46,404 nt of DNA from Oscillospiraceae bacterium. Lineage in GTDB: Bacteria > Bacillota > Clostridia > Oscillospirales > Ruminococcaceae. Shown here piece by piece: positions 38,154-41,556 of this stretch. Under the pieces are notes generated by a model. It was not told the origin of the DNA. It did no database searches and saw only the letters and a program-made list of their open reading frames with translations. The translations under genes were made by a program, and so were the position numbers. The stretch spans positions 90,948 through 137,351 of the forward strand of contig JAAVIF010000026.1 of the NCBI GenBank assembly GCA_014799365.1, in the 5' to 3' direction. Position 1 is the stretch's first letter; the number at the start of each line of letters is the position of its first letter.

Positions 38154-38182
38154 TTGAAAATTCTTTATATATATGGTATAAT
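38154..38182 (+). promoter_or_regulatory. Sigma-A promoter of the Ddl-like gene cluster
   Basis: TTGAAA, a 17-bp spacer and TATAAT, about 110 bp before the start codon. It would drive the Ddl-like, DUF1934 and argS genes. Confidence 0.75.
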
Positions 38183-38212
38183 TTTTTAATAGCATATTTT
38201 AAACAATGTAAA

Positions 38213-38265
38213 TAAGAACCCGTCTTCATAAGACGTGTGCGTAAGTCTGTGAAAACAGGTTCTAA
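38213..38265. repeat. Palindromic repeat AAGAACC...GGTTCT before the Ddl-like gene
   Basis: AGAACC and GGTTCT bracket an inner hairpin CGTCTT/AAGACG. The 3' end TGTGAAAACAGGTTCTAA matches 17 of 18 bases of the end of the element at 42742-42900 (TGTGAATACAGGTTCTAA). It lies in the transcribed leader. Confidence 0.6.
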
Positions 38266-38292
38266 TAAATGCAAAGGCAAGGTAGCAAGTTA

Positions 38293-39363
38293 ATGGCTAA
38301 AACTAAGGTTGCGGTATTGTTCGGCGGACAGTCTAAGGACTACTCGGTATCGCTGAAATCGGCATATTCGGTAATAAATGCGTTATCGGAGGATAAATAC
38401 GATGTTATTCCCATAGGGATCACCCGGGTGGGAAGGTGGCTTTATTACCCGGGCAATTATGAATCCATAGCCGACGGAAGCTGGGAAAACGATTCCGACT
38501 GCTGCCCTGCCGTAATAAGCCCCGACGCGGTTCATCACGGAATAATAAAGCTGATCGATAACTCGGAAATGGCTATCCAGCGAGTTGATGTTATTTTTTC
38601 CGTCATATACGGAAAATTCGGAGAATGCGGACGTTTACAAAGCCTTTGCAAGCTTGCGGGCATTCCATTTTTGGGAAGCAATCCCGAAGCCTCAAGCACG
38701 GCAGTAGACAGATCAATGACTCATTTGCTGCTTGACGAAGCGGGGATAGAAACCGTAAAATATTTTTGTGTGGAACGAAGCGACATGCAGTTTATTGACG
38801 AAATAATAAACGCTCGGGAACAGGCTCTGAACTATCCCGTAAGAGTAAAGGCTTCAAGCTGCAGCTCGTCTATCGGCTCGAATATAGCCTTTGATAAAAA
38901 CGAGCTTAAGTCCGCACTGAAAATTGCATTTTCGCATCATCACAAGGCTGTTGTGGAAAACGCGGTCACGGGGAGAAGGCTCTGCTGCTGCGTTTATGAA
39001 AACGAGGGTCTTGTTACGGTATCGGAAATAGGCGAGACCGCTCCCGTTGAAAGCACTATCGACCGTTTGAACAATTATATAGGCAGGACCTCTAAATTCA
39101 AAGCACCGGCGGAAATATCGGAATCCATGTCGGAAAAAATAAAAAATACGGCCAAGCGCACCTTCAGAGTCATGGACTGTCAGGGCTTTGCGATAATAGA
39201 TTTTCTGCTTACAAATGATGAAAAATTGTACTGCACCAAGGTTTCCACCGTTCCCGGCTTTAACGAGGAAAGTATTTTATCAACTCTTCTTTCCGCAAAC
39301 GGATTAAGCTATTCGGATATACTCGAGATAATGCTTAACAACGCCTTGGAATCAAAAGCGTAA
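38293..39363 (+). CDS. D-alanine-D-alanine-ligase-like protein with altered catalytic residues
   Basis: A 356-residue ATP-grasp protein with clear Ddl ancestry (VAVLFGGQSKDYSVSLKSAYSV at the start, CGRLQSLCKLAGIPFLGSN, and PGF near the end). Key residues differ from Ddl. The GGxSxE(H/R)xVSL motif reads SKDYSVSL. HGxxGEDG reads YGKFGECG. KPxxxGSS reads KASSCSSS. The C-terminal RxD...NEINTxPG region reads IID...TKVSTVPG, so the phosphate-binding Arg and the Mg-binding Glu and Asn are lost. It may be a pseudoenzyme or have a new specificity. The ATG at 38293 is upstream of an AAGG. DUF1934 and argS follow. Confidence 0.85.
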   Translation: MAKTKVAVLFGGQSKDYSVSLKSAYSVINALSEDKYDVIPIGITRVGRWLYYPGNYESIADGSWENDSDCCPAVISPDAVHHGIIKLIDNSEMAIQRVDVIFSVIYGKFGECGRLQSLCKLAGIPFLGSNPEASSTAVDRSMTHLLLDEAGIETVKYFCVERSDMQFIDEIINAREQALNYPVRVKASSCSSSIGSNIAFDKNELKSALKIAFSHHHKAVVENAVTGRRLCCCVYENEGLVTVSEIGETAPVESTIDRLNNYIGRTSKFKAPAEISESMSEKIKNTAKRTFRVMDCQGFAIIDFLLTNDEKLYCTKVSTVPGFNEESILSTLLSANGLSYSDILEIMLNNALESKA

Positions 39364-39422: not shown

Positions 39423-39857
39423 ATGAGTAAGGAAGTTTCTATAAAGATAAAAACCGTACAGTCCGCCGACGGAGACGAAGATGTTACCGAGCTTTTCACC
39501 TTCGGAAAGCTTTCAAGGCTGAAAGAAGGAAAGGGGTTTCATATTGTCTACGAGGAAAGCGAGGTAATGGGCTTTGAGGGCTGTAAGGTATCATTGGATA
39601 TAACCGACAGCTCCGTTAAAATGTCAAGAACGGGAAAAGCAAGCTCAACGCTGTTTATTGAAAAGGGCAAGAAGCATCACGGTCATTACGGGACACCCTA
39701 CGGAGATTTTATGATAGGAGTAAATACCGACGAGCTGAAAAACGATATGACCGACAAAGGCGGAGACTTGTATATGAAGTATACGATTGATATTAACTCG
39801 GACTTTTTGTCGGAAAACGAAGTATTTGTAAACGTTAAAGAATGCAAACTGCAATAA
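39423..39857 (+). CDS. DUF1934 (YwiB-like) beta-barrel protein
   Basis: A 144-residue protein fitting the DUF1934/YwiB family, a calycin-like barrel: ELFTFGKLSRLKEGKGFHIVYEESEVMG, GCKVSLDITDSSVKMSRTGK, then a TPYGDFMIGV segment and C-terminal strand MKYTIDINSDFLSENEVFV. In Bacillus, ywiB lies next to argS, and this order is kept. GAAAGGA precedes the ATG. The function is unknown. It ends 13 bp before argS and is probably co-transcribed with it. Confidence 0.9.
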   Translation: MSKEVSIKIKTVQSADGDEDVTELFTFGKLSRLKEGKGFHIVYEESEVMGFEGCKVSLDITDSSVKMSRTGKASSTLFIEKGKKHHGHYGTPYGDFMIGVNTDELKNDMTDKGGDLYMKYTIDINSDFLSENEVFVNVKECKLQ

Positions 39858-39870
39858 GGAGAAAACAAAA

Positions 39871-41556
39871 ATGATCAACACCATAGCTAACGCAAAAAAT
39901 GAAATAAAAGAAATAGTTCTGAACGCGCTGGGCAGACTTGTTGCCGAAGGAAAGCTGCCTGCCGAGCCTTTGCCCCCCTTTGCGGTCGAAATACCCAACG
40001 ATAAGGCTCACGGAGATTTCTCCTGCAACGCCGCACTGGTATCCGCAAAGCCCTTGAAGCAAAATCCGAGAAATATTGCGGCTATGATAGTGGATAATGC
40101 CGTTTTGGACGGTACCGCATTTGAAAAAATCGAGCTTGCGGGACCCGGCTTTCTTAACTTTTTTGTAGGCAAGGCTTGGTTTGCGGGAACGGTAAACGCC
40201 GTGCTTTCCGAAAAAGAGGATTACGGCAAAACAGACGACGGAAAAGGAAAAAGAGTACTTGTGGAATTTGTTTCGGCAAATCCTACCGGACCTATGCACA
40301 TAGGCAACGCAAGAGGCGGCGCACTCGGAGACTGTCTCGCTTCCCTGCTCCAATACGCGGGATATTATGTGGAACGTGAATTTTATATAAACGACGCGGG
40401 AAATCAGATAAACAAATTCGCTCTGAGCCTTGATATACGCTACCGTCAGCATTTCGGAGATACCGTTGAAATGCCCGAGGACTCATATCACGGACAGGAT
40501 ATAATAGACCATGCGGAAAATTTTGCAAAGGAATACGGCGACAAGTATATGGGCGTAAGCGAGGAGGAGCGCAGACAGGCACTTGTGGACTACGCTTTGC
40601 CCATTAACATAAAAGGACTTGAAGAAGACCTTTTGAAATACAGAATAAAATATGATACGTGGTTTAAGGAAAGCACGCTTCACAACGACGGCTCCGTTGA
40701 CGAGGCGGTAAAGCTGTTAAAGGAAAACGGATATACTTACGAGCAGGACGGCGCGCTGTGGTTTAAATCCTCCGGGCTTGGCGACGACAAGGACAGAGTG
40801 CTTATAAGAGCCAACGGAGTTCCCACCTATTCCGTTCCAGACATCGCCTATCACTACAACAAGCTTGAAAAACGTAAATTCGATATAGCGATAGACGTTT
40901 TGGGAGCGGATCACCACGGCTATATTCCCAGAATGAGGGCCGCGCTTACCGCTCTCGGAGTAGACGCGACGCGCCTTGACGTTGTTATTATGCAAATGGT
41001 TCGTCTTGTAAGAAACGGCGAAACGGTAAAGCTTTCCAAAAGATCGGGCAAGGCTATTACCCTGTCCACCCTTTTGGACGAGATCCCAATGGACGCGGCA
41101 AGATTTTTCTTTAATCTTCGCGACCCCAACACTCATTTTGAATTTGACCTTGATCTTGCCATTGAGGAAAGCTCCAAAAATCCCGTTTACTATGTTCAGT
41201 ACGCTCACGCGAGAATTTGCCGCATACTCGAAAAACAAAAAGAAGATGGCAACGAATGTAAGTTTATTCCCGAAAATCAGCTTGTTTTTACCGAACCCGC
41301 AGAAATAGAGCTTATCCGCCATTTGGCTTCACTGCCCGACGTTATCAGCGAGGGCGCAAAGACCTACAACCCCTCTTTGATAACAAGATACCTGATAGAG
41401 CTGGCACAGCATTTTCATAAGTTTTACGATGCCTGCCCCATTAAGGGAGCGGAGGAGACTGTTTTGCAGTCAAGGCTGTCTCTTTGCACTGCCGCAAAAA
41501 CAGTTATTAAAAATCTTCTTGATCTGCTTAAGGTAGAAGCCCCCGAAAAAATGTAA
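39871..41556 (+). CDS. argS: Arginine-tRNA ligase
   Basis: A 561-residue class I aminoacyl-tRNA synthetase that charges tRNA-Arg. It has the N-terminal additional domain, the HIGH-type motif NPTGPMHIGNARGGALGD, VLGADHHGYIPRM, the KMSKS-like VKLSKRSGKAITL and a C-terminal anticodon-binding domain (YVQYAHARICRILEKQ). Length is normal. TAAGGAGAA precedes the ATG. It is the third gene of a run with the Ddl-like and DUF1934 genes. No T-box lies upstream. Confidence 0.97.
   Translation: MINTIANAKNEIKEIVLNALGRLVAEGKLPAEPLPPFAVEIPNDKAHGDFSCNAALVSAKPLKQNPRNIAAMIVDNAVLDGTAFEKIELAGPGFLNFFVGKAWFAGTVNAVLSEKEDYGKTDDGKGKRVLVEFVSANPTGPMHIGNARGGALGDCLASLLQYAGYYVEREFYINDAGNQINKFALSLDIRYRQHFGDTVEMPEDSYHGQDIIDHAENFAKEYGDKYMGVSEEERRQALVDYALPINIKGLEEDLLKYRIKYDTWFKESTLHNDGSVDEAVKLLKENGYTYEQDGALWFKSSGLGDDKDRVLIRANGVPTYSVPDIAYHYNKLEKRKFDIAIDVLGADHHGYIPRMRAALTALGVDATRLDVVIMQMVRLVRNGETVKLSKRSGKAITLSTLLDEIPMDAARFFFNLRDPNTHFEFDLDLAIEESSKNPVYYVQYAHARICRILEKQKEDGNECKFIPENQLVFTEPAEIELIRHLASLPDVISEGAKTYNPSLITRYLIELAQHFHKFYDACPIKGAEETVLQSRLSLCTAAKTVIKNLLDLLKVEAPEKM

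Follow-up and report, generated by a model that had tools for sequence, protein, structure and literature searches.

D-alanine-D-alanine ligase (Ddl) is a textbook essential enzyme and a drug target. The stretch of DNA analyzed here (the window, 46,404 nucleotides of contig JAAVIF010000026.1 from an Oscillospiraceae bacterium) encodes a homolog of this enzyme, here termed pseudo-Ddl, whose active site is eroded. Its nearest solved relative by sequence is VanG (PDB 4fu0), one of the VanG-type D-Ala:D-Ser / D-Ala:D-Ala ligases. Homology is full-length, with 32% identity over 340 structurally aligned model residues and the same predicted fold. Pseudo-Ddl differs from these ligases, however, in its eroded catalytic residues, and it does not reach the cut-off of the VanG model NF000091 (295.7 bits against 495); no van-type genes were found among the neighbors scanned around it. 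Canonical ligases of the same bacterial family (e.g. L166, L129) occupy the same place before DUF1934 and argS, and the pseudo-Ddl clade is nested among them, but they retain 11 of 11 catalytic positions and no second Ddl was found in 33 of 34 of their genomes. The CspC pseudoprotease of Clostridioides difficile (PMC6636752) is likewise a conserved enzyme relative kept for signaling rather than catalysis, although its fold and pathway differ and such a role of pseudo-Ddl is a proposed one. A search of the open-access literature, a scope that excludes spelling variants and subscription papers, found no described pseudo-Ddl. Papers matched on related topics concerned a tubulin ligase-like protein (for ATP-grasp pseudoenzymes) and the Acinetobacter envelope (for inactive ligase paralogs).

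38293..39363, plus strand: pseudo-Ddl, a degenerate VanG-type D-Ala-D-Ala ligase homolog of 356 amino acids (ATG at 38293, stop at 39361-39363)

We consider it likely, at a probability of roughly 0.62, that pseudo-Ddl is a conserved pseudo-ligase derived from the Ddl of its locus, which does not carry out D-Ala-D-Ala synthesis and is kept for a non-catalytic role exerted mainly through its N-terminal half. Its status as a pseudoenzyme is strongly supported by sequence comparison: catalytic residues are lost and the protein is under purifying selection.

Catalytic residues of pseudo-Ddl

Both Ddl domains, N-terminal PF01820 and C-terminal PF07478, are complete in Pfam matches, and the structure model predicts that the Ddl / ATP-grasp fold of 4fu0 is retained, in agreement with the fold landmarks reported in an earlier note on this DNA. 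Among curated NCBIfam Ddl models, the protein falls short of the TIGR01205 cut-off (238.1 against 245.65) and passes that of NF002528 (below). Catalytic residues are numbered after E. coli K-12 DdlB (L262), and eleven positions were chosen by E. coli numbering, backed by PMC6899670. That paper lists, for another Ddl, the ATP, metal and D-Ala residues Glu22, His70, Lys104, Lys148, Glu184, Glu192, Lys220, Tyr221, Arg260, Asp262, Glu275 and Asn277, whose equivalence to DdlB numbers is our own mapping.

38338..38340, plus strand: Asp16, at the position of DdlB Glu15; Asp in 56/56 pseudo-Ddl sequences, Glu in 37/37 canonical locus sequences
38608..38631, plus strand: YGKFGECG (residues 106-113), at the position of HGxxGEDG; His63 is Tyr
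38848..38877, plus strand: KASSCSSSIG (KASSCSSS, residues 186-193), at the position of KPxxxGSSxG; Pro145 is Ala and Gly149 is Ser (Ser in 56/56)
39193..39204, plus strand: IIDF (residues 301-304), at the position of R-x-D-F; Arg255 is Ile, Asp257 is kept
39235..39258, plus strand: TKVSTVPG (residues 315-322), at the position of NEINTxPG; Glu270 is Lys, Asn272 is Ser

The four altered motifs that the earlier note had singled out, YGKFGECG, KASSCSSS, IIDF and TKVSTVPG, are all present in the open reading frame, and alignment with DdlB bears out changes at 7 of the 11 positions (E15D, H63Y, K97R, E187R, R255I, E270K, N272S). The omega-loop residue Lys215, which lies outside the eleven, is also changed (K215N). 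The note's statement that the Mg ligands are replaced proved right for Glu270 and Asn272, within NEINTxPG, but passed over the third metal ligand, Asp257, which survives. Among the substrate residues Glu15, His63, Arg255, Lys215 and Tyr216, now Asp, Tyr, Ile, Asn and Tyr, one of five is kept.

Conservation and selection across the genus

Sampling of 71 genomes of the genus yielded 56 full-length orthologs. Glu270 is replaced in every one of them, and all three metal-ligand positions are lost in 35. Losses at other positions are also frequent (Lys144 in 31, Glu187 in 41, Asp257 in 36 and Asn272 in 55), and the omega loop is short or altered in most sequences. Close pairs within the genus show strong purifying selection on pseudo-Ddl, with a ratio of nonsynonymous to synonymous substitution (dN/dS) similar to that of argS. 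A pseudogene or a sequencing or assembly error can thus be rejected: genomes of other species share the changes and selection on the protein is strong. The 56 full-length open frames likewise agree with the view that the gene is not decaying.

Position 270 carries Arg or Lys in 50 of the 56 orthologs, Glu180 is retained in 55, and the predicted fold is that of an ATP-grasp enzyme. These features would suit a live ligase with an altered substrate, or one that works without metal because Arg or Lys at 270 stands in for it. We consider such an enzyme quite improbable, given the number of orthologs that have lost Lys144, Glu187, Asp257 or Asn272, the state of the omega loop, and the finding (below) that the C-terminal part, the expected seat of the reaction, is the least constrained. 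Of the two possibilities raised in the earlier note, a pseudoenzyme or a changed reaction, the first is thus upheld by the universal replacement of Glu270 and by purifying selection, and the second appears unlikely, since 35 orthologs are without any of the metal ligands.

Intact ligases elsewhere in the genome

A second, intact ddl was looked for in the source genome and two were found, the VanG-type ligase L001 and the Ddl L002, each with 11 of 11 catalytic positions. L001 stands in a row with a VanW-like protein and a VanY-type carboxypeptidase (G000:C19), a vanG-like cluster. We searched 55 genomes, only 15 of them from the 71 of the genus, with L002 as query. Another Ddl with intact motifs was present in 27 of 27 genomes tested that have a degenerate locus copy, comprising the 15 genus genomes and 12 of lineages g19, g108 and g96 (in G358 the second gene is cut at a contig edge). 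Among the 34 genomes with a canonical locus ligase, one second Ddl was detected (G248, the VanG-type L228), although several of these genomes are 78-91% complete and a second Ddl could be missed there; six other extra matches were weak (<21 bits), and all but one of these fell in frames roughly 950-1370 amino acids in length.

The replacement ligases are of three types. This genus and g19 have an L002-like enzyme, g108 has a different type, and g96 has a short one of the CLEANT type. Thirteen of 19 family genomes added to the survey had only such other ligases as best match and no recognizable locus copy. It follows from this distribution that genomes with another ligase either yielded no locus copy or retain it in a dead form, with the exception of G248. 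In g51, the short CLEANT-type Ddl L249 (G339) has a DUF1934 match in the same stretch and is possibly an in-place replacement of the locus Ddl; in another g51 genome, G120, a VanG-type Ddl precedes DUF1934.

History of the locus

The named genome collection comprises 76 loci, mostly from metagenome assemblies labeled Ruminiclostridium, Oscillospiraceae or Clostridia. In this collection DUF1934 follows the gene at every genus-type locus except L079, L099, L144, L148, L150 and L152, where a contig edge intervenes. To cover the family's other genera, a further 40 loci were hand-picked for genus spread from the best-scoring part of a 297-genome search. Canonical-motif ligases occupy 34 of the 40, with DUF1934 detected downstream in 32. 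At many canonical loci a gap of about 800-900 bases separates the two genes; in L129 this gap is filled by an Asp/Glu racemase (murI-like).

The other six loci carry degenerate copies, from four g108 genomes, one g19 and one g96. The g108 copies have lost His63, Arg255, the omega loop and Gly276 and retain Glu270; the g19 copy has Lys for Glu270 and Gly for Asn272, and that of g96 has Gln for Glu270. The 19 added genomes, chosen because they were low-scoring or belonged to g19 or g96, yielded six more degenerate locus copies from g19 and g96 with matching residue states, one of them (L236) without the N-terminus. The g108 copies and their look-alikes (L173-L176; L131, L134, L135, L137-L139, L141-L143) have RNK for MDK and Leu for Arg255; GEVNTMP is mostly kept and the omega loop deleted. 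L139 and L175, among the nine g108 sequences, are identical.

Two trees were built, with 37 and 16 of the 56 orthologs of this genus (g1), respectively. In the more careful of the two, a 105-sequence tree, the 37 genus pseudo-ligases make up a single clade (100/100) that lies within the canonical locus copies. Horizontal gain of a VanG cassette was considered as the origin of the gene and rejected. The same tree groups g1, g108 and the single g19 sequence at 94/84, whereas g96, one sequence on a long branch, falls separately at an open fork. In the other, quick tree, a branch with support of 73 has all 32 degenerate sequences used on the same side (57 for the three lineages without g96). The degenerate lineages may therefore form one clade, although a grouping of this kind could also be an artifact of long branches. 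The differences between lineages in broken residues and in replacement ligases favor several independent inactivations.

A slowly changing N-terminal segment

38398..38562, plus strand: residues 36-90, the N-terminal segment of the degenerate proteins with the lowest rate of change compared with their C-terminal part

Pairwise identity over residues 36-90 is 0.674 among the 56 pseudo-Ddl sequences and 0.524 among 37 canonical ones; over the C-terminal part (residues 223-356) the values are 0.376 and 0.577, respectively. The ratio of change in 36-90 to change in 223-356 was compared in non-overlapping close pairs. Its median was 0.34 in 28 pseudo-Ddl pairs against 0.95 in 18 canonical pairs (P 4e-7), and in live VanG, L002-type and other ligases it was 1.44-1.63 (9 pairs). 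Pseudo-Ddl against all 27 live pairs gave P 3e-9, and the other three degenerate lineages, with seven pairs, differed from the live pairs at P 0.003. In these statistics pairs within each clade share ancestry, and for this genus the test is in part post hoc, the segment having been chosen by eye from conserved residues. The close-pair test was also uneven (median difference 0.19 for pseudo-Ddl and 0.35 for canonical pairs) and was repeated at matched divergence. At 25-50% difference the medians were 0.46 (25 pseudo-Ddl pairs) and 0.98 (18 canonical pairs; P 7e-8), with P 0.0009 for the other degenerate lineages, and at 30-50% they were 0.41 and 1.06 (18 pairs each; P 3e-7). In the first comparison the weakest lineage was g108 (true median 0.73). 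The entire N-terminal part (1-129) shows a similar shift, 0.39 in pseudo-Ddl against 0.79 in canonical ligases.

In PMC6899670, Ddl dimers recur among crystal structures and conserved dimer residues are named, Asp103 among them. By our own mapping these residues fall at about 113-139 of the window protein, with Asp103 at Asp139, which 55 of the 56 orthologs retain; residues 36-90 are therefore not the interface described there. The recurrent dimers, the retention of Asp139, and the presence of a working Ddl beside the pseudo protein in all 27 genomes tested would accord with a hetero-dimer in which the pseudo protein is a regulatory subunit specific to the working Ddl and tunes D-Ala-D-Ala synthesis. 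This arrangement appears unlikely, as the slow segment precedes the mapped dimer residues and the type of working Ddl differs between lineages, which is unfavorable to specific pairing.

Promoter region and neighboring genes

38154..38182, plus strand: promoter-like site TTGAAA-17-TATAAT with TG before the second hexamer, score 11/12
39423..39857, plus strand: DUF1934 protein, conserved downstream neighbor
39871..41556, plus strand: argS, conserved downstream neighbor

DUF1934 and argS lie directly downstream of pseudo-Ddl, as expected of the operon proposed earlier. The "clean" promoter of that proposal is sound in its 11/12 match and in its -10 part, TATGnTATAA, which is identical in all 10 upstream regions aligned, that of the window among them; the -35 hexamer varies. 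The match and the invariant -10 part suggest that pseudo-Ddl is probably expressed, leading the DUF1934-argS genes. The 101-base leader 38195-38295 folds slightly better than shuffled sequences (z -2.0), and AGAACC...GGTTCT pairing at 38215-38265 encloses an inner hairpin. However, most of the stretch has no counterpart in the nine nearest relatives aligned, of which only L081 matches part of it, and a structured RNA was dropped as a candidate. Rfam gave no known RNA between 37900 and 38420 up to E 1.

The gene at 41589-42740 matches the homocysteine S-methyltransferase family in part (PF02574, 44.5 bits) and lacks the GGxCG motif, which 5 of 45 listed homologs keep (L086, L125, L136, L162, L171; some others are cut short). 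It is fast-evolving (dN/dS 0.17 against L077), and its product may be another degenerate enzyme encoded in this run of genes.

Discussion

Pseudo-Ddl would have originated as the Ddl of the family locus ddl-(murI)-DUF1934-argS. Another Ddl, of the L002 type, would have taken over catalysis in the genus, and the locus copy would have become a conserved pseudo-ligase. Erosion of the omega loop and of the metal, phosphate and substrate residues has probably abolished D-Ala-D-Ala synthesis. The remaining non-catalytic role would be carried mainly by the N-terminal half, residues 36-90 above all. Pseudo-Ddl would most likely be a subunit that binds or regulates a partner protein, and the setting may be the pathway to cell-wall precursors. 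The former ATP-grasp half may serve as a scaffold or as a metal-free ligand pocket in which Arg or Lys replaces the metal-binding Glu; whether this positive charge at the old metal site holds an anionic ligand or merely neutralizes the pocket is speculation. It is possible, though rather doubtful, that in the family's housekeeping Ddl the N-terminal part serves a second function, non-catalytic and predating the loss of catalysis, such that the live Ddl of neighboring genera moonlights too. Lineages with the three replacement ligases would then have given up the enzymatic activity of the locus copy and retained its second function.

Several points weigh against a conserved pseudo-ligase. The window protein retains 4 of the 11 catalytic positions (K144, S150, Y216, D257) and passes the NCBIfam Ddl subfamily model NF002528 (264.7 against a cut-off of 262). 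No copy was found in 10 of the 71 genus genomes, four of them at least 90% complete (G023, G025, G043, G044), and pseudo-Ddl is therefore not indispensable. L138, a g108-type copy in the named collection, is broken by an in-frame stop. A partner protein did not emerge from the analysis. If the degenerate lineages are one clade, the counts of co-occurrence with intact ligases are not independent. The constraint shift is partly a relaxation of the C-terminal part, yet residues 36-90 are also absolutely more conserved. The missing copies and the interrupted L138, with the promoter-like site upstream, could also be read as slow decay of a gene retained merely as the promoter-proximal leader of the DUF1934-argS operon. 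This is hardly credible in view of the 56 full-length open frames, a dN/dS similar to that of argS, and a segment conserved at the protein level.

For a conserved pseudo-ligase, annotation based on NF002528 would be misleading, as it would call an apparently dead protein "D-alanine--D-alanine ligase". An apparently dead Ddl under selection throughout a genus is a natural experiment in which catalysis is separated from whatever second function Ddl may have. With its fixed substitutions, its slowly changing segment 36-90 and the live ligases that occupy this locus in relatives, pseudo-Ddl opens the hidden function to direct tests.
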